Positions 1 through 19,998 of a DNA stretch of 21,847 nucleotides are shown here, piece after piece. The notes beneath the pieces were generated by a model. The model was not told the origin of the DNA and did no database searches. It saw only the letters and a list, made by a program, of their open reading frames with translations. Each line of letters starts with the position of its first letter. Position 1 is the stretch's first letter. This DNA comes from a virus: positions 1 to 21,847 of IMG/VR virus record IMGVR_UViG_3300043446_001926. One strand, given 5' to 3'. A program made the translations under genes and the position numbers.

Positions 1-2
1 AA

Positions 3-260
3 ATCCTCACCGCACCGACAACGCGAATGGCCGACGTACTCGGGTTCATCTATTTGCACTCGGCACCAGAGGCTGAAGTCGCTGAGGCAACCGCCGCTTA
101 TCTCGGTGGGGACAAGGCGCGAATCCTTAAGGCCGCGCTCAAACTTCCTGCGATCCCACTCTCTGACCTCGCCGCAATCGCGGGACAGATTCGCGAGATG
201 ATTGAGCGAGCGATGGGGACTCAGGTGACCGTTGAGGGAGACATGGCGCCGGGAAACTGA
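3..260 (+). CDS. Tail assembly chaperone, short form (lambda gpG-like), 5' partial
   Basis: The reading frame is open from the window edge, so the true start may lie upstream; the first in-frame ATG visible is at 27, giving 77 residues to the TGA at 258-260. The visible part is an acidic, Ala/Leu-rich helical protein of no recognisable fold. The call rests on context. It lies just upstream of the tape measure gene, ends exactly at a -1 slippery heptamer, and is followed in the -1 frame by a second open segment. That is the conserved G/GT arrangement of long-tailed phages, in which G and the G-T fusion coat the tape measure protein during tail assembly and are absent from the finished tail. 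One gene separates it from the tape measure here, which is slightly unusual. Chaperone identity is inferred; the frame and the frameshift signal are seen directly. Confidence 0.7.
   Translation: MLTAPTTRMADVLGFIYLHSAPEAEVAEATAAYLGGDKARILKAALKLPAIPLSDLAAIAGQIREMIERAMGTQVTVEGDMAPGN
251..257 (+). promoter_or_regulatory. Programmed -1 ribosomal frameshift site GGGAAAC
   Basis: The heptamer G GGA AAC is in the frame of the short chaperone and fits the X XXY YYZ rule; lambda G/GT uses the close relative GGGAAAG. The zero-frame stop TGA follows immediately at 258-260. A shift of -1 continues reading at CTG (257) into an open frame that runs to 445. Ten bases upstream lies AGGGAG (235-240), the same hexamer at the same spacing as the internal Shine-Dalgarno stimulator of the E. 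coli dnaX frameshift. I did not find a convincing downstream stem-loop by eye. Confidence 0.8.
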
Positions 261-445
261 GTCGGGCTGGAATCGTGGCGCGGTATGTTCACCATTTCGC
301 AAGCGTCTATGGGTGGCAACCGCGTGAGATTCTGGCCCTCTCCATGCAAGACGCGAACGCACTCTTCGCCGCGCACTTGGAGGCACAGGGGCACCGCATC
401 AAGTCGGCGGTGGATGTCGGAGACAATTGCGATGGGATTCCTTAG
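257..445 (+). CDS. Tail assembly chaperone C-terminal extension (T domain of a GT-like fusion), made by -1 frameshift
   Basis: This frame is open for 62 codons after the slippery site and ends at TAG 443-445. It has no plausible start of its own near 257 (its only ATG is at 344), so it is expected only as an extension of the upstream protein. The text reads like real protein: it contains GIVARYVHHFASVYGW followed by QPREILALSMQDANALFAAH. The aromatic 'YGW, then basic/acidic, then ILALS' pattern recalls T domains of tail chaperones (inference from memory). The competing frame that starts at 285 gives Arg/Ser/Trp-rich text over the same bases, which looks non-coding before 432. By analogy with lambda, the fusion would be the minor product and would bind tail tube subunits while the shared N-terminal part binds the tape measure. 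It overlaps the next gene by 14 bases. Confidence 0.72.
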   Translation: MSRAGIVARYVHHFASVYGWQPREILALSMQDANALFAAHLEAQGHRIKSAVDVGDNCDGIP

Positions 446-1079
446 CGCAACCGTGGACTTCAGAGAGTTCAACCGAGTTCTCACTCGGTACGCCGCGAAC
501 TCGAAAATCACGGTCGAGCAAGCCGTCGCCAAAAAGTTTCGCTCGGTGGTTTTCGAGGCGCGAAAGTTACAACTCGCAACCCGACCGGACACCCTCGCCG
601 AGATCAGCCGGGTGAAGGCGCGGGGAGAACTTGGTATCAGAAAACGCACGATGGCGCGGGTGATGAAGAAGCGCAGCAAACTCGCGCAACAGGTCGAGCG
701 CATGAAGATGGCCGTCGCCAAAGGTGGCAAGCGGGGGCAGAAGGCCGCATTCAAGCTGATGTCAGCGACCACACAACTCCAGAGGAGCGCATCGCAAGAG
801 GCGTGGTCAGCAGAGGTCAAGATGCGCGAGAACGCCGCAGGACGCGCGGGAGCATGGGGATGGAGAATCAAGGGCAACCAGTTCGCGGAAATCGCCGCCG
901 CTGAAAGGTCGGCCAAGGTCGCGAAATCGTCCGACATCTTCCGCACCTTCATCGAAATCACCAACAACCGACCCGAGTCGAACGAGTTTTCTGAACGCAA
1001 AGGCATCGTGAATCGCGCGATGTCCAATGTCCTCGCTGACATGAAAAGCTATCTCGAACGCCAACTTGCAAAACTATGA
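432..1079 (+). CDS. Basic tail-region protein of unknown function
   Basis: This is a 215-residue protein beginning MGFLSATVDF. I place the start at 432 because the longer frame from 285 overlaps the frameshift extension with implausible text, and because GGAG (419-422) sits 9 bases before this ATG. The protein is rich in Lys, Arg and Ala, with a long predicted helical stretch between about residues 35 and 130 (for example KKRSKLAQQVERMKMAVAK), and has no membrane segment or catalytic motif that I recognise. Its gene lies between the chaperone pair and the tape measure gene and overlaps the tape measure start by ATGA, so a role in tail assembly or in the tail tube is likely. A tail-completion or tape-measure-associated role is possible, but nothing in the sequence decides this. 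Confidence 0.75.
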   Translation: MGFLSATVDFREFNRVLTRYAANSKITVEQAVAKKFRSVVFEARKLQLATRPDTLAEISRVKARGELGIRKRTMARVMKKRSKLAQQVERMKMAVAKGGKRGQKAAFKLMSATTQLQRSASQEAWSAEVKMRENAAGRAGAWGWRIKGNQFAEIAAAERSAKVAKSSDIFRTFIEITNNRPESNEFSERKGIVNRAMSNVLADMKSYLERQLAKL

Positions 1080-3262
1080 GCAGCGCAGTAATCCGCATTG
1101 GTGCCGACACCTCAGACTTCCGCAAAGGACTCAACTCCGCACTCGGGGAGATGGGTTCGTTTGCAAAACAGATTGCTGCTGTTGCTGGAGGACAAGCACT
1201 CTTCGCCGGGTTGCAGGGTGCAGTTTCAGCGGTCGGTTCCGCTCTTCGCGGATTCGGTGAAACCTTCAAGGAATCGATTTCGGTCGCTGGTGAGTTCGAG
1301 TCAGTCGTCGCACAGTTCACCACCTTCTACAAATCCGCTGAGACGGCGCAAGGTGCGGTCGCTGAGTTGGCCAAGTACGCCGCAACAACATCATTCCAAC
1401 TCGGCGAAATCTCAAATGCAGGGGCAGGACTCGCGGCAGCTGGTGTACCAGCCGAGCAACTGAAGGAGACCATTCGAGTGCTCGGTGACATCGCTGCAGG
1501 GACGAAAAAACCGCTCGCCGAAATCCTGCAACCCTACGTCAAGACGCTCTCGGTCGGCAAAATGCAGACGGAGACCTTCCTTCAGTTTTTAGAACGAGGA
1601 ATCCCCATTGGGGAGGAGTTGAAGAAGGCGTTGAACCTCGATGACGCAGGACTTCAGAAGGCACTCACAGCAGGGTCTATCTCCGCGCAGGACATGGTCA
1701 ACGCTCTCCAGCAGATGACCACGACTGGTCTCTTCAGCGGGGCAGCAGCAGCACAGGGGCAGACACTCAACGGTCTCCTCTCAACGCTCGCGGACAACGT
1801 CGAGGAGGTGAAGCGCAACCTCGGCATCGCCGCATCCACCGGGCTGAAACCTCTTATCGAGTTCGCGCAGACGCTGGTCGGCAAGTTCGCGCCGATTGGG
1901 ACTGCACTCGGCAACATCTTCACCGCCGCAACCGCGAAGGCGATGCAGTTCAGCGACCAGTTCAGCGCGGGGTTCGGCAAGGCCGTTGACTTCGCGGTCA
2001 ACGCATTCCAAGTCGTCGAGGGGGCGATTAAAAACGGCACCCTCTGGGATGTGCTGGTGACGAGCGGCAAGATTGCCTTCCTAGAAGTCACGGAAGCCGC
2101 CGTCCGTGCGTTGCAGGGCATCGCTGGCATATTCGACGAGGGCAACGCATTGACGGGCCTTGGTGGGCTTTTATCAGAGACCCTCACCGATGCTCTGGGG
2201 ACGGTCGCTGGTTCTGTCGCTGACACTATCGGCAAAGCACTCCTCGACGCTGCGAAGGCGTGGCTGGACTACGTCACTAACGGCATCAAACGCATCCCTG
2301 CCGCTCTCGGTGAGTTGGTCAGCGCAGTATTCTCCTCAGGAAACACCGCTGGTCTCAGTCAGCGCACCTTGCAAGGAATGGGTGCAAACCAGCAGAGGTT
2401 CCAAACCTCGCAAAGCTACATGGCACCGCAAGCAAGTGGGATGACTTCAGCGCAGGCGCAGGAGATTGTGGCCGCGAAAGCCGCAGGCTACCCGACTCCG
2501 CTCACACCGGGGGAAGTTCGTGAGACATTCGCAGGTGGAAAGCGCATCACCTACAACACGAAGGAATCACTCTCGAACGGGGCCATCATTCCACCGAGCA
2601 ACTCGGAAGCGTTCGCCGAGGGAACCCCGGGGCAGGGACTCCTCGCCGCATTCGAACGTGGATTCGGGAAACAGACGAACGCGACCGAGAAACTCCAAGC
2701 TCAGAATGAGAAACTCCGCGTTGAGTTGGCCAAGCTGACTGAGGCCGCACTTCGCAACGCCACCGCGATCCGCGAGCAGTCGAGCACCCTTAAAAGCACC
2801 AGCGAACTCACGGCGAAGCAGGGGCAAGCGCAGGCGCAAGCTCAGAAGGAGGGAAAAGCAGTCAAAACCGCTGACGCATTCACCTCGCTCGAGAAAATCG
2901 GCGGAGGTCGTCGGACGATGAACCTCGCTCCTCGGGGGCCGATGATTGACCTCGAGGGACAACAACCCGGACTGCGAGCAGCTGGTGAACTCGGCGCAGG
3001 ATTTGCAAACTCACCGCGATTCATGCAGGCGCGAGAGGCCGCGCGGAAGCGTGACGAGATGCTCAAGATTCCGGTTCAAGGACCACCCGCTGCACCGTTC
3101 TTTCAACAGCAGAGGCAACAAGCCGCGCAAGCCGCGCAACCGATGCAACAAGCAAATCCAGAAGCAGACCTTCGCAGAATGATGGAAGAGATCTCGCGAG
3201 GGCTCAACGGAGTCACCGCCGCAATCGTCAAACAGGGCTCGCTGAACGTGGCCGTCGTATGA
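1076..3262 (+). CDS. Tail tape measure protein
   Basis: This is a 728-residue protein. Residues about 70 to 255 resemble the tape measure N-terminal domain (TIGR02675 type): EFESVVAQFTTFYKSAE, an Ala/Gly-rich helical stretch, GIPIGEELKKAL, then ISAQDMVNALQQMTTTGLFSG and a closing LSTLADNVEEVKRNLG. A hydrophobic, Gly/Ala-rich middle (about 340-400) may be the membrane-interacting part. A short coiled coil follows near residues 535-565 (EKLQAQNEKLRVELAKL), and a Gln/Ala-rich tract lies near 676-700. Tape measure proteins span the tail tube lumen and set its length at roughly 0.15 nm per residue; if all residues count, this predicts a tail near 110 nm. The start overlaps the preceding stop as ATGA. 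The size and the chaperone pair upstream support a long-tailed phage. Confidence 0.93.
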   Translation: MSSAVIRIGADTSDFRKGLNSALGEMGSFAKQIAAVAGGQALFAGLQGAVSAVGSALRGFGETFKESISVAGEFESVVAQFTTFYKSAETAQGAVAELAKYAATTSFQLGEISNAGAGLAAAGVPAEQLKETIRVLGDIAAGTKKPLAEILQPYVKTLSVGKMQTETFLQFLERGIPIGEELKKALNLDDAGLQKALTAGSISAQDMVNALQQMTTTGLFSGAAAAQGQTLNGLLSTLADNVEEVKRNLGIAASTGLKPLIEFAQTLVGKFAPIGTALGNIFTAATAKAMQFSDQFSAGFGKAVDFAVNAFQVVEGAIKNGTLWDVLVTSGKIAFLEVTEAAVRALQGIAGIFDEGNALTGLGGLLSETLTDALGTVAGSVADTIGKALLDAAKAWLDYVTNGIKRIPAALGELVSAVFSSGNTAGLSQRTLQGMGANQQRFQTSQSYMAPQASGMTSAQAQEIVAAKAAGYPTPLTPGEVRETFAGGKRITYNTKESLSNGAIIPPSNSEAFAEGTPGQGLLAAFERGFGKQTNATEKLQAQNEKLRVELAKLTEAALRNATAIREQSSTLKSTSELTAKQGQAQAQAQKEGKAVKTADAFTSLEKIGGGRRTMNLAPRGPMIDLEGQQPGLRAAGELGAGFANSPRFMQAREAARKRDEMLKIPVQGPPAAPFFQQQRQQAAQAAQPMQQANPEADLRRMMEEISRGLNGVTAAIVKQGSLNVAVV

Positions 3263-5782: not shown

Positions 5783-6330
5783 TTCCACGACTCAAATCAG
5801 GGGGCGCAATCGCAACCGCCATCAACGCGATCATCGACTATTTGCCGAGGTTGGTGATTCAAAACACCCCGGACATCACTGCATCGCTGACTCCTCGGGG
5901 GCAGTTTGTTTCGCTCAAGAAGCGAATCACCTCGGGAGGTGGTGGATCCACAGGCACAGGGAACTACCCATTCAAGGTCACCGTTGAATCCGAGACCGTC
6001 GGAGAGGCGACCACTTACAAGGTGTGGGTGCGATGGGGCACCGTGAATGGGCAGTCGGTGGTCAACTATCCGAAGGAGGAAGTGGGTGCAGCAGCTGACG
6101 CGAAGAGAGTGGTGCTGAACGTCACAGGCAACTTCAGCGACACCACATCATCGGGCGTCAGCTTCCCGTCCCTCGCAATCGAGGACATGGACACCCTTCT
6201 CACCGCCGACGAGCAACCGGACTCAGTAGCGTACAAAATCGTTCTTGCTTACATCACCGCGAACGACGGGGGGGGATTCACCGTTTCTCAGCAGACCGGA
6301 GGTCACCAAATCATCGGACTTCACAGTTGA
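5773..6330 (+). CDS. Small tail protein sharing an N-terminal module with its upstream neighbour
   Basis: This is a 185-residue protein with two candidate starts (ATG 5773 and ATG 5779). Residues about 11 to 48 repeat the module of the upstream gene: AIATAINAI, then RLVIQNT, a single Asp, and TPRG. A Gly/Ser/Thr linker (GGGGSTGTG, about residues 56-64) separates this from a beta-rich C-terminal domain. The layout suggests a common docking segment with different display domains attached by a flexible linker. The function is unknown; a tail-tip or fibre-base role is inferred from position. Confidence 0.75.
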   Translation: MSMIPRLKSGGAIATAINAIIDYLPRLVIQNTPDITASLTPRGQFVSLKKRITSGGGGSTGTGNYPFKVTVESETVGEATTYKVWVRWGTVNGQSVVNYPKEEVGAAADAKRVVLNVTGNFSDTTSSGVSFPSLAIEDMDTLLTADEQPDSVAYKIVLAYITANDGGGFTVSQQTGGHQIIGLHS

Positions 6331-8542: not shown

Positions 8543-10111
8543 ATGCCGAACTTCATTCGACAACTTCGAAAGACTACTTCGGGGGCTCCGCCGATTACGG
8601 GGATTCCCTCGGGTGTTCTGCTCGTAAACACCGCCGACCAAACTCTTTCCTTTCCGAACGCCGCTGGGACAGACTGGGTGACGATTCAGGCGGGTGCATC
8701 GTCGCCGTCGTTCGCTCTCAATCAGTTCACCTTCGACGGTAACGGATCGCAAACGGCATTCACCACCACATCGACGGACTCGACCGATGCGCACTTCATC
8801 GTGGCCATCGGTGGAGTCTTCCAAACCGCTGGAACCGATTACACCGTCACCGATGGCGTGGTGACATTTACAACACCGCCGCCGAGCGGGGAGAAGGTTA
8901 ACGTGCTCGTCGCGTCAGGTGGTGTCATGGGGCCTCAGGGACCCGCAGGAGCGCAGGGACCAGCAGGGCCGAGTGGAGTTCAGGGCGTAGAAGGACCAGC
9001 GGGAGGACTCGGTGCGACCGGGTCAACTGGACCGAGCGGGGCGACGGGTCCTATCGGCGCGACAGGCATTCCCGGGCCGAGCGGTGCGCAAGGTGTCGCT
9101 GGTCCTGCCGGGGGAGCGACTGGCGCGACGGGGCCAAGTGGATTGCAGGGACCTTCGGGTTCACCCGGTGGCGCAACCGGACTTCCCGGGGCAACGGGGG
9201 CAACTGGCGCATCCGGAGTTAGTGCGTTGTGGCACTACACGGGAGCATTCGACCTTGGCAACGCTTACGCAGTCGGTGACTTGGCCACGTATCAGGGGCA
9301 ACTGTGGTATCGCTCAGACGCGAACGGGGGCAACGTAGGTGACGTGCCGTCAACGGCTTCCCCGTTCTGGGACCTCATCGCGAGTCGTGGGGCAAACGGT
9401 CCGGCAGGGTATGATGGAGCAACGGGAGCAACGGGTCCGACGGGCGCAACAGGTCCTGCGGGGGCGCAGTACTGGGGGGGCACCCTTGCACCAACGAACA
9501 CGCTCGGCAAAGAGGGTGACGTCTACTTTCGAGAACAGGGGTATGACACCGACACGGGTGCAAAGTTCGTCACGGTCTACGTCAGGCAGGCTGACGGGTG
9601 GTCCTTCCTCGCGTCGATGAGCGGTCCACGGGGTCCGACTGGTGCGAGCGGTCAGGAAGGCGCAACGGGTCCAAGAGGATTCCCGGGGCCTTCGGGCGTC
9701 CCGGGACTCGGGCTGGTGGGACCAGTAGGACCACCCGGGCCCGCAGGACCACAAGGACCTCCCGGCGAAATGGGCACCCGAGGGATGGCAGGTCCACAGG
9801 GAGACACTGGTCCCACGGGGCCGCCGGGAGCAACCGGAGCAACGGGGGCAACAGGTGTCGATGGCGTCGCTGGTGTCGATGGGGCAACAGGCGCGACGGG
9901 TCTCGAAGGCGCGACAGGCGCAACTGGAATGCCGGGCGGTGATGGTCCCCCGGGATTTCCCGGGCTTGATGGAGCAACTGGTGCAACCGGACCAACCGGA
10001 CCGACCGGACCAAACTGGATGCCGACAACGCAACTCCCTTCGACGACGGCTGTTCCGTACGGGTACTTCGACGCAGGGCAAGGAAGGTTGGTGCCTTATT
10101 ACACGGTATGA
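8543..10111 (+). CDS. Collagen-like tail fibre protein with carbohydrate-binding-like module
   Basis: This is a 522-residue modular protein. Residues 1-50 ([14 protein letters not shown] onward) resemble the N-terminal module of the previous gene. Residues about 53-128 form a beta-domain ([12 protein letters not shown], then [12 protein letters not shown], then [12 protein letters not shown]) found again in the next two genes. Gly-X-Y triplets rich in GAT, GPS and GPT run from about 130 to 227 and, with interruptions, from 283 to 491. Residues 228-282 contain an aromatic module ([30 protein letters not shown]) like CBM5/12 chitin-binding domains. A second globular insert lies near 308-360. 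The C-terminal tip is short ([18 protein letters not shown]). Collagen-like stalks trimerise in known phage fibres. Occasional GG steps break the triplet register. Confidence 0.9.
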
Positions 10112-10533: not shown

Positions 10534-12943
<2,410 letters not shown>

Positions 12944-18669: not shown

Positions 18670-18984
18670 ATGAACAAAGAACTAATTGAAATGCTGCTAA
18701 AAGTGGCACTTGGACAAGAAAAACAAGAAAAACAAGCTGAACAAATCGTTCCAGAACAGCAGATTGTAGTGCTCGACAAAGGGTTTGTTTACGTCGGAAA
18801 CGTAACCATCCGAGATGGTTGGGTGAACATTGAAAACGCAAGAAACATCCGCATTTGGGGAACAACCCAAGGGCTTGGTGAACTTCGTAATGGCCCATTG
18901 AAAGAGACCAAGTTGGACGAGTGTGGAATCGTGTTGGCCCCATTAAAAAGTCTTATCCATTTGATACCATGCAAAGGGTTTTAA
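18670..18984 (+). CDS. DUF6948-like small protein
   Basis: This is a 104-residue protein. The frame is open upstream inside the resolvase gene, but ATG 18670 just after that stop is the sensible start. A Lys/Glu/Gln-rich N-terminus (about 8-30) leads into a beta-rich part: VVLDKGFVYVGNVTIRDG, then NIENARNIRIWGTTQGLG, then KLDECG and IHLIPC. The 'G-x-V ... DG ... NARNIRIW ... L ... IPC' pattern resembles the phage domain DUF6948 as I remember it. Base use is more AT-rich than in the neighbours at both ends. Function is unknown. Confidence 0.68.
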   Translation: MNKELIEMLLKVALGQEKQEKQAEQIVPEQQIVVLDKGFVYVGNVTIRDGWVNIENARNIRIWGTTQGLGELRNGPLKETKLDECGIVLAPLKSLIHLIPCKGF

Positions 18985-19169
18985 TTTTAGACGGACACAG
19001 GTCCGTGTCCGGGCACGGGCACGGGTACGGGGACGGGTACGGGGACGGGTACGGGTACGGGTACGGGTCCGGGTCCGGGTACGGGTACGGGTCCGGGGAC
19101 GGGTACGGGTCCGGGTACGGGTCCGGGTACGGGTCCGGGTCCGGGTCCGGGTCCGAGGAGAAATATTAA
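18969..19169 (+). CDS. Low-complexity (Gly-X)n protein encoded by the hexanucleotide repeat
   Basis: This is a possible 66-residue protein: MQRVLILDGHRSVSGH, then 24 Gly-X pairs where X is Tyr (10), Ser (9), Asp (3) or His (2), then EEKY. The start overlaps the previous gene by 16 bases and has no ribosome binding site, so expression is uncertain. Every Gly codon in the pairs is GGG, and every X codon ends in C. Gly/Tyr/Ser-rich peptides are often disordered and self-associating. The alternative is that this stretch matters as DNA or RNA rather than as protein. Confidence 0.45.
   Translation: MQRVLILDGHRSVSGHGHGYGDGYGDGYGYGYGSGSGYGYGSGDGYGSGYGSGYGSGSGSGSEEKY
18992..19011 (+). promoter_or_regulatory. 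Perfect hairpin leading into the hexanucleotide repeat
   Basis: CGGACAC (18992-18998) and GTGTCCG (19005-19011) form a 7-bp stem with a 6-base loop directly at the left border of the repeat. It follows an AT-rich stretch. It could be a replication or recombination landmark, or simply a degenerated repeat edge. Confidence 0.4.
19011..19154 (+). repeat. 24-unit GGG-NNC hexanucleotide tandem repeat with G-quadruplex potential
   Basis: Twenty-four consecutive 6-base units, each GGG followed by TAC, TCC, GAC or CAC, without interruption. Runs of three G recur at exact 6-base spacing, a textbook G3N3 pattern able to form G-quadruplexes in single-stranded DNA or mRNA. The array lies 44 bases upstream of the RecT-like gene. 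Its GGG and terminal C are invariant while the two middle bases vary. Confidence 0.95.
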
Positions 19170-19197: not shown

Positions 19198-19998
19198 ATG
19201 AACAACGAAAACAAACCACTGGCCCTGTTCGCAGGGGTGAACGACCCCGTCGGGGCAGCAATGCAACTAGGTGAGGCCTTCGCGTCCTCGGGGATGTTCG
19301 GGTGCACCAAACCCGCGCAGGGGGCCATCCTCGCTCTGCAATGCCTGACCTCGGGGCTGACGCCGTTTGAGGTCACGCAGACCTACCATCTGCTCGACGG
19401 CAAACTCTCGATGAAGAGCGATGCGATGCTCGGAAAATACGTGCGAGCCGGGGGGCGCGTCCAATGGATCACTCGAACCCACGAACGCTGCAAGGCGAGG
19501 TGGACGTTCCGGGAGAACGACCTCGAGATGGAGGTGACCATGCAGGAACTTGTGGCGAGCGGGGTTGCGCTCGGGAAAGGTGGCGAACTTAAAGACAACT
19601 ACCGCAAGCATCCGAGACAGATGCTCACGGCACGTCTCATCTCAGAGGCCGTGCGACTACTCGCGCCTGACGTTGTCAGCGGCGTTTATACGCCAGAGGA
19701 GGTCACGGACTTCAGTCCAGCAGCTGCACAGCCAATCGCTGACAGACCCATGCCCTTGCCTGTCCTAGACGCTTTGACGGAGCAGAAAAGCGACGTTTCC
19801 GATCCCGTTGCGCCACCCACAGTCGAGGCAGAGGTGATTGAGGACATCGAGGACGAGTTCAAGACCCTCTTAGGAGCACACTACGGAGCAGCACTCGCTT
19901 TCTTCAAGGTCGAGCGTCTCACCAGTTTGTCAACCCGAGTCCAGCAGGACATCCGCAACCGCACCGAAGCTCTCATCAAGAAAATCTCAACGAAGTAA
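19198..19998 (+). CDS. RecT-family single-strand annealing protein
   Basis: This is a 266-residue protein. RecT features include a helical N-terminus with QGAILALQCLTSGLTPFEV (position of the 'A-x-x-G-L-x-P' segment), then THRTHER-type strands with YHLLDGKLSMKSDAMLGK and VRAGGRVQW, the DLEMEV strand, and the family's signature KDNYRKHPRQMLTARLISE, followed by LLAPDVVSGVYTPEEV. The C-terminal 90 residues are acidic and then helical, a likely partner-binding tail. RecT proteins coat ssDNA and anneal homologous strands, often with an exonuclease and an SSB; here an SSB-like gene follows at once but no exonuclease is visible in the window. The leader is A-rich without a Shine-Dalgarno sequence. 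Confidence 0.85.
   Translation: MNNENKPLALFAGVNDPVGAAMQLGEAFASSGMFGCTKPAQGAILALQCLTSGLTPFEVTQTYHLLDGKLSMKSDAMLGKYVRAGGRVQWITRTHERCKARWTFRENDLEMEVTMQELVASGVALGKGGELKDNYRKHPRQMLTARLISEAVRLLAPDVVSGVYTPEEVTDFSPAAAQPIADRPMPLPVLDALTEQKSDVSDPVAPPTVEAEVIEDIEDEFKTLLGAHYGAALAFFKVERLTSLSTRVQQDIRNRTEALIKKISTK

Follow-up and report, generated by a model that had tools for sequence, protein, structure and literature searches.

The window analysed here is the full 21,847-base fragment of an uncultured phage that makes up IMG/VR record IMGVR_UViG_3300043446_001926. It opens inside a small open reading frame (ORF) that ends at a slippery heptamer and is continued in the -1 frame by a second coding stretch. 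We refer to the two parts as G and T; the features of the locus, all on the plus strand, are as follows.

3..260, plus strand: 3' two thirds of the G-type ORF (putative short chaperone product), open to the window edge; homologous ORFs of relatives encode 126-130 aa
235..240, plus strand: AGGGAG, Shine-Dalgarno (SD)-like, within Glu-Gly-Asp codons, 10 nt before the heptamer; window's clade only, synonymous control P = 0.54-0.57
251..257, plus strand: slippery heptamer G GGA AAC; unchanged in L053 and the 17 close relatives, GGGGGAG in L014/L021
258..260, plus strand: TGA stop of the zero frame, adjoining the heptamer; 17/17 close relatives have TGA or TAA in this position
257..445, plus strand: extension in the -1 frame (T-type domain), 62 codons and a TAG stop; conserved protein with third-position substitution bias
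264..338, plus strand: whole stem-loop, about 75 nt; -43 kcal/mol for 258-345, z -4.54, 0/200 shuffles
264..274, plus strand: 5' arm of the stem, GGGCTGGAATC, beginning 6 nt past the heptamer, putative stimulator; from folding, alignment and recoding
328..338, plus strand: 3' arm of the stem, GATTCTGGCCC; from folding, alignment and recoding
432..1079, plus strand: downstream gene for a basic protein of 215 aa, possibly with a neck or tail-completion role; found in relatives too, no family matched with confidence
1076..3262, plus strand: tape measure protein gene; phrog_9959 (E 8.5e-31), Pfam PF20155 TMP_3 (E 3.6e-21)

Read in the frame that TGA 258-260 closes, GGGAAAC is divided as G|GGA|AAC, and the extension comprises the codons at 257-442 that follow the shared Gly-Asn, its frame remaining open until the TAG at 443-445. 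An earlier sequence-only reading of this DNA had given the whole arrangement exactly (AGGGAG at 235-240, spacer at 241-250, GGGAAAC at 251-257, TGA, and a -1 frame of 62 codons running to 445). In the relatives, the G ORF opens with an ATG situated 147 nt upstream of the codon at window position 27, about 120 nt beyond the window edge, and the whole G protein would thus comprise 126 aa.

A scan of IMG/VR with the fusion protein retrieved 21 loci, and profile scans of the same database added one record, L053; further IMG/VR scans with G or T profiles recovered the same 22 records and nothing new. The window forms a clade with L002-L006, next to a separate sister clade, and L053 and the pair L014/L021 are more distant. 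Identity of the G part ranged over 54-99% among the IMG/VR relatives (70% in L014/L021 and 54-57% in L053). Homologues of G or T were found neither among GenBank phages, to which the tape measure and terminase proteins showed distant similarities, nor in 84,980 species genomes.

In most of the seven records scanned, chance had also placed a heptamer elsewhere close to the end of an ORF with a long -1 frame after it, and thus the case for this locus rests on conservation and comparison. The combination of GGGAAAC, an immediate stop and an extension of 60-62 codons was intact in 17 of the 17 close relatives covering the site, and a -1 extension of 47-68 codons was present in all 20 complete IMG/VR relatives. 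L053 keeps GGGAAAC in the same frame, with the stop several codons after the heptamer and an extension of 47 codons. The extension is open, coding and conserved: its identity among relatives was 41-97%, the codons immediately 3' of the slip are also conserved, and substitutions in 11 sequences were distributed over codon positions 1, 2 and 3 of the -1 frame as 274:171:1155, a third-position excess indicating that the extension is under protein selection. Since neither protein has a family annotation, ordinary gene calling would miss this extension, as the sequence-only reading had anticipated; its assignment of the locus to -1 frameshift cassettes of the tail-chaperone (lambda G/GT) kind likewise agrees with the conservation of heptamer, stop and extension among the relatives.

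The ATG of the basic 215-aa gene overlaps the final 14 nt of the extension, and this gene sits between the putative frameshift gene and the tape measure gene. In G001, a genome of the window's clade, the order is terminase, portal, capsid-like, small tail-like, frameshift gene, basic 215-aa gene and tape measure, where terminase and tape measure were tested against families and databases and the other names come from position or from reading of the sequence. The gene thus lies between major-tail-like genes (named by position in G001) and the tape measure gene, which is the position of G/GT, and this synteny points to a lambda G/GT-like tail assembly chaperone. Neither G nor T matched a Pfam or PHROG family, and hhalign detected no relationship to lambda gpG. 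The AlphaFold model of G reached a pLDDT of 70, with four of the five models poor, and a fold search of the pLDDT-70 model against the PDB and BFVD gave no significant match (the best hit, an uncharacterised Caudovirales protein, had an E of 0.019). Tail assembly chaperones are known for low sequence similarity (PMC5009743).

Several other genes are worth noting. In the window, two long proteins (8543-10111 and 10540-12936) are rich in collagen-like G-X-Y repeats and are probably tail or fibre proteins, and an ORF of Gly-Tyr/Gly-Ser/Gly-Asp repeats (GYGYGDGYGDG...) at 18921-19169 stands just before a RecT-like gene at 19198. Upstream of the terminase in G001 (L060/L061, reverse strand) there are genes resembling a DNA cytosine methyltransferase, a glutamine-dependent asparagine synthase and a SAM methyltransferase, with called starts at 1186, 2310 and 3681.

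The stem-loop downstream of the heptamer

The sequence-only reading had supposed that AGGGAG acts in place of an obvious downstream structure, which proved to be wrong. The segment 258-345 folded at -43 kcal/mol compared with a mean of -28.4 for 200 dinucleotide shuffles, none of which was as low (z -4.54), and the other close relatives that were folded gave z values of -2.8 to -4.7. Within the stem-loop, inner helices pair 276-293 with 312-327, and in several members 259-261 are also able to pair with 340-342. The hairpin is thereby stable, is supported by the evolutionary evidence given below, and begins 6 nt 3' of the heptamer, within the roughly 5-9 nt expected of such an element. Neither an Rfam match (window 1-1200) nor a shared pseudoknot was found, the latter in a search for complementarity between the apical loop and downstream sequence that was common to all members.

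The pairing was next examined across the alignment. A consensus of 22 pairs was formed in 95-96% of alignment cells and in 37-69% for slid versions (37-53% for shifts of one to three columns in the alignment that gave 96%), and the covariation score of the stem was equalled in 0-1 of 500 shuffles. The most telling pair joins columns 18 and 84, which read G-C, A-U or U-G with synonymous third positions on both sides; columns 21 and 81 show a compensatory third-position exchange of G-C for A-U. These covariation statistics ignore relatedness and the independent lineages are few, so that they are to be read together with a synonymous control. As the stem region is coding, the same peptide was recoded with the phage codon usage, and none of 500 recodings of the window folded as well as the real sequence (0-2 of 500 across eight close sequences).

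The stem extends to part of the more distant relatives. All ten outer pairs are retained in L014, with G-C exchanged for A-U among them, and its spacing is likewise 6 nt. L053 is without this stem and has an unrelated hairpin 6 nt after GGGAAAC (-21.7 kcal/mol, z -3.14). The 88-nt folds of L014 and L053 were no more stable than shuffles. Taken from sequence comparison, the conserved downstream hairpin, not the upstream AGGGAG, appears to be the signal that aids slippage.

The upstream AGGGAG and the start signals of the phage

Aligning related phages, as the sequence-only reading had proposed for AGGGAG and its spacing, revealed no conservation beyond the window's clade. The motif is identical in the window and L002-L006 and was found at that spacing nowhere else; the sister clade shifts or loses it, and its retention of Glu-Gly leaves a GAAGGG or GAGGG at a more upstream position. 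In L020 there is just GAAGG, and L053 shows nothing comparable. Random synonymous codons equalled or bettered the match to the anti-SD (aSD) in 54-57% of cases in the window clade, and the sister clade gave 63-84%. Neither this synonymous control nor the alignment of relatives gave a sign of selection on the AGGGAG codons, and hence no SD-like motif that is conserved or selected was found about 10 nt upstream of the heptamer.

Gene starts elsewhere in these phages do not appear to be SD-led. SD 4-mers occurred at 16-26% of called starts, which equals the background, compared with 47% in lambda by the same procedure. Over 61 distinct intergenic starts, G was depleted across most of -22 to -7, A reached 54% at -3, and a strong SD-like motif was present at 4; with starts so poor in G and in strong SD motifs, aSD interaction would not be the usual mode of this phage. 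Most starts of the window and its relatives (e.g., L003 at about 5833-5856) have an A/C-rich, G-poor leader, such as CCTAACCATAACC-ATG, with A at -3, and the frameshift gene itself is preceded by leaders of this type. Such start regions lacking an SD motif suggest an SD-scarce host. When the terminase profile was run against species genomes, the only relative came from a Pedosphaera MAG (39%), a genus of the Verrucomicrobiota, and the G/T profile had no match in that MAG genome; the terminase lead hints weakly at a Verrucomicrobiota host. Bacteria in which SD motifs are scarce although the aSD is intact are found in the Bacteroidota and in part of the Verrucomicrobiota (PMC10783764).

AAAGGA was observed in G003, G006 and G007 of the sister clade (called starts 6588, 7997 and 6788), at the gene that follows a small decoration-like gene. 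In position this gene corresponds to the putative major capsid gene, and G001 of the window's clade is without AAAGGA.

The few sister-clade starts with AAAGGA imply that the anti-SD may be accessible, and a minor role of AGGGAG in the window's clade is accordingly conceivable. Both elements might then act as in dnaX, the stem-loop as the main stimulator and AGGGAG as a modest boost in the window's clade only. The suitable spacing and the few genes with good SDs, such as those with AAAGGA, would fit this arrangement, but the codons bear no sign of selection and conservation is limited to very close relatives, and we regard it as rather unlikely. More improbable still is that slippage at the same heptamer depends mainly on pairing of AGGGAG with the 3' end of 16S rRNA in the manner of E. 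coli dnaX, with no downstream structure, which is close to what the sequence-only reading had put forward. Its 10-nt spacing falls inside the 9-14 nt range for -1 stimulators (PMC5009743), the motif is identical across the window clade, GARGG arises from the Glu-Gly codons at wider spacing in the sister clade, and dnaX itself pairs an upstream SD with a stem-loop. Against these points, AGGGAG is not kept outside the clade and is absent from L053, synonymous codons do equally well, starts are SD-poor, and a strong, conserved and covarying stem-loop is present 6 nt after the heptamer.

The remaining alternatives dispense with slippage. The downstream frame might be a separate gene reached by re-initiation or coupling after TGA 258, with no fusion, given that the sister clade has ATG at the codon aligned with window position 272 and the window has GTG at 275. 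However, no start codon is conserved, the aligned codon being ATC in the window clade; that codon falls inside the stem, the exact heptamer is invariant and the post-slip codons are conserved, all of which leaves this explanation very improbable. Chance or sequencing error, whereby the two frames would be unrelated or a single frame broken by an assembly error, is hardly credible. Similar patterns do arise by chance in most records scanned, but many metagenomes yielded the same arrangement, 17 close relatives in all, and in these the stop is conserved and the extension evolves at third positions.

Proposed mechanism and comparison with known systems

On these grounds, the locus very probably represents a tail assembly chaperone gene of the lambda G/GT type whose expression involves programmed -1 frameshifting, with the stem-loop at 264-338 as the putative stimulator. 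The evidence is comparative and consists of the conserved heptamer, stop, coding extension, stem-loop and genome position; from it we infer slippage, stimulation by the stem, the efficiency or product ratio, and the chaperone function. The points against this reading are the missing match to a known chaperone family, the one gene before the tape measure, the noncanonical heptamer of L014/L021, the low efficiency reported for GGGAAAC in E. coli, and the 88-nt folds of L014 and L053. As AGGGAG is unsupported and the hairpin is conserved, the likely device is a slippery heptamer with a 3' hairpin, i.e., the classical device, and probably a known mechanism in a new phage group.

In the proposed mechanism, most ribosomes would terminate at TGA 258 and release the short protein. 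The stem, positioned at the mRNA entrance, would pause ribosomes on G GGA AAC, and in a minority the P- and A-site tRNAs would re-pair from GGA AAC to GGG AAA in a tandem slippage. The slipped ribosomes would then translate 62 more codons (...GN|LSRAG...) to give the fusion. Lambda-type product ratios require only a few percent frameshifting, and a weak GGGAAAC would suit a low fusion ratio together with a strong stimulator. In E. coli, GGGAAAC is a low-efficiency heptamer, and G_GGA_AAC is apparently used by insertion sequence (IS) elements (PMC4066793). By analogy with lambda, the short form may coat the tape measure protein and the fusion may recruit the major tail protein, following the G/GT biology described for that phage (PMC5009743).

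The locus resembles the lambda G/GT system in its fundamental features: a small gene situated between the major tail genes and the tape measure gene has, close to its end, a G GGA AAN at which a -1 shift would yield a short and an extended product. The same kind of gene is found in HK97 and in P2 (E/E'). The heptamer is GGGAAAG in lambda and GGGAAAC in the window, where the stop codon follows it without a gap. In the window a further gene also separates the extension from the tape measure gene, and no protein similarity to the lambda system was detectable. The 88 nt after GGGAAAG in lambda also folded above chance (z -2.6).

Other systems share single elements. The g-t genes of the haloarchaeal siphovirus HCTV-1 use exactly G_GGA_AAC for their tail chaperone shift (PMC5009743), although the host is archaeal and the likeness is one of heptamer and gene. 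In the IS3- and IS1-family cassettes, G_GGA_AAC is among the more frequent heptamers and 3' structures serve as stimulators (PMC4066793), but in a transposase context; an upstream SD has been estimated for 56% of the IS elements with such frameshifting (PMC5009743). E. coli dnaX combines a slippery heptamer with a close 3' stem-loop, both of which are present in the window, and an upstream element that AGGGAG resembles in the window's clade. In contrast, its heptamer is A AAA AAG, its SD is a demonstrated stimulator whereas that of the window is unconserved, and its frameshift product is the shorter one, while that of the window phage would be the longer.

The departure from this scheme lies in L014/L021, in which the stem, with its 6-nt spacing unchanged, is preceded by GGGGGAG (L014:6231-6237; same offset in L021) and not by GGGAAAC. 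The frame at the aligned site reads G GGG GAG, and after the slip the -1 extension aligns residue for residue. An AAAAAGC found upstream in L014 was considered as the slip site and rejected, since it lies 15 nt before the stem and offers no A-site re-pairing. The GGGGGAG of L014/L021 would be the only part surprising to a specialist. As a tentative and possible wider reading, chaperone frameshifting in a phage lineage with an SD-poor uncultured host, perhaps Verrucomicrobiota, may have become dependent on a large covarying 3' stem-loop and a GGGAAAC that is weak in E. coli; the L014/L021 branch would have retained the stem and exchanged its heptamer for GGGGGAG, with slippage that would proceed without canonical A-site re-pairing.

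The upstream SD-like motif thus represents an attractive, E. coli-centred reading, and the part that evolution has conserved is the hairpin. GGGAAAC and GGGGGAG before the same stem, together with the replaced hairpin of L053, offer a natural comparison for the evolution of -1 signals, and for a phage group in which no cultured member was found, the locus supplies a frameshift gene pair that is well supported and whose putative RNA stimulator can be named.
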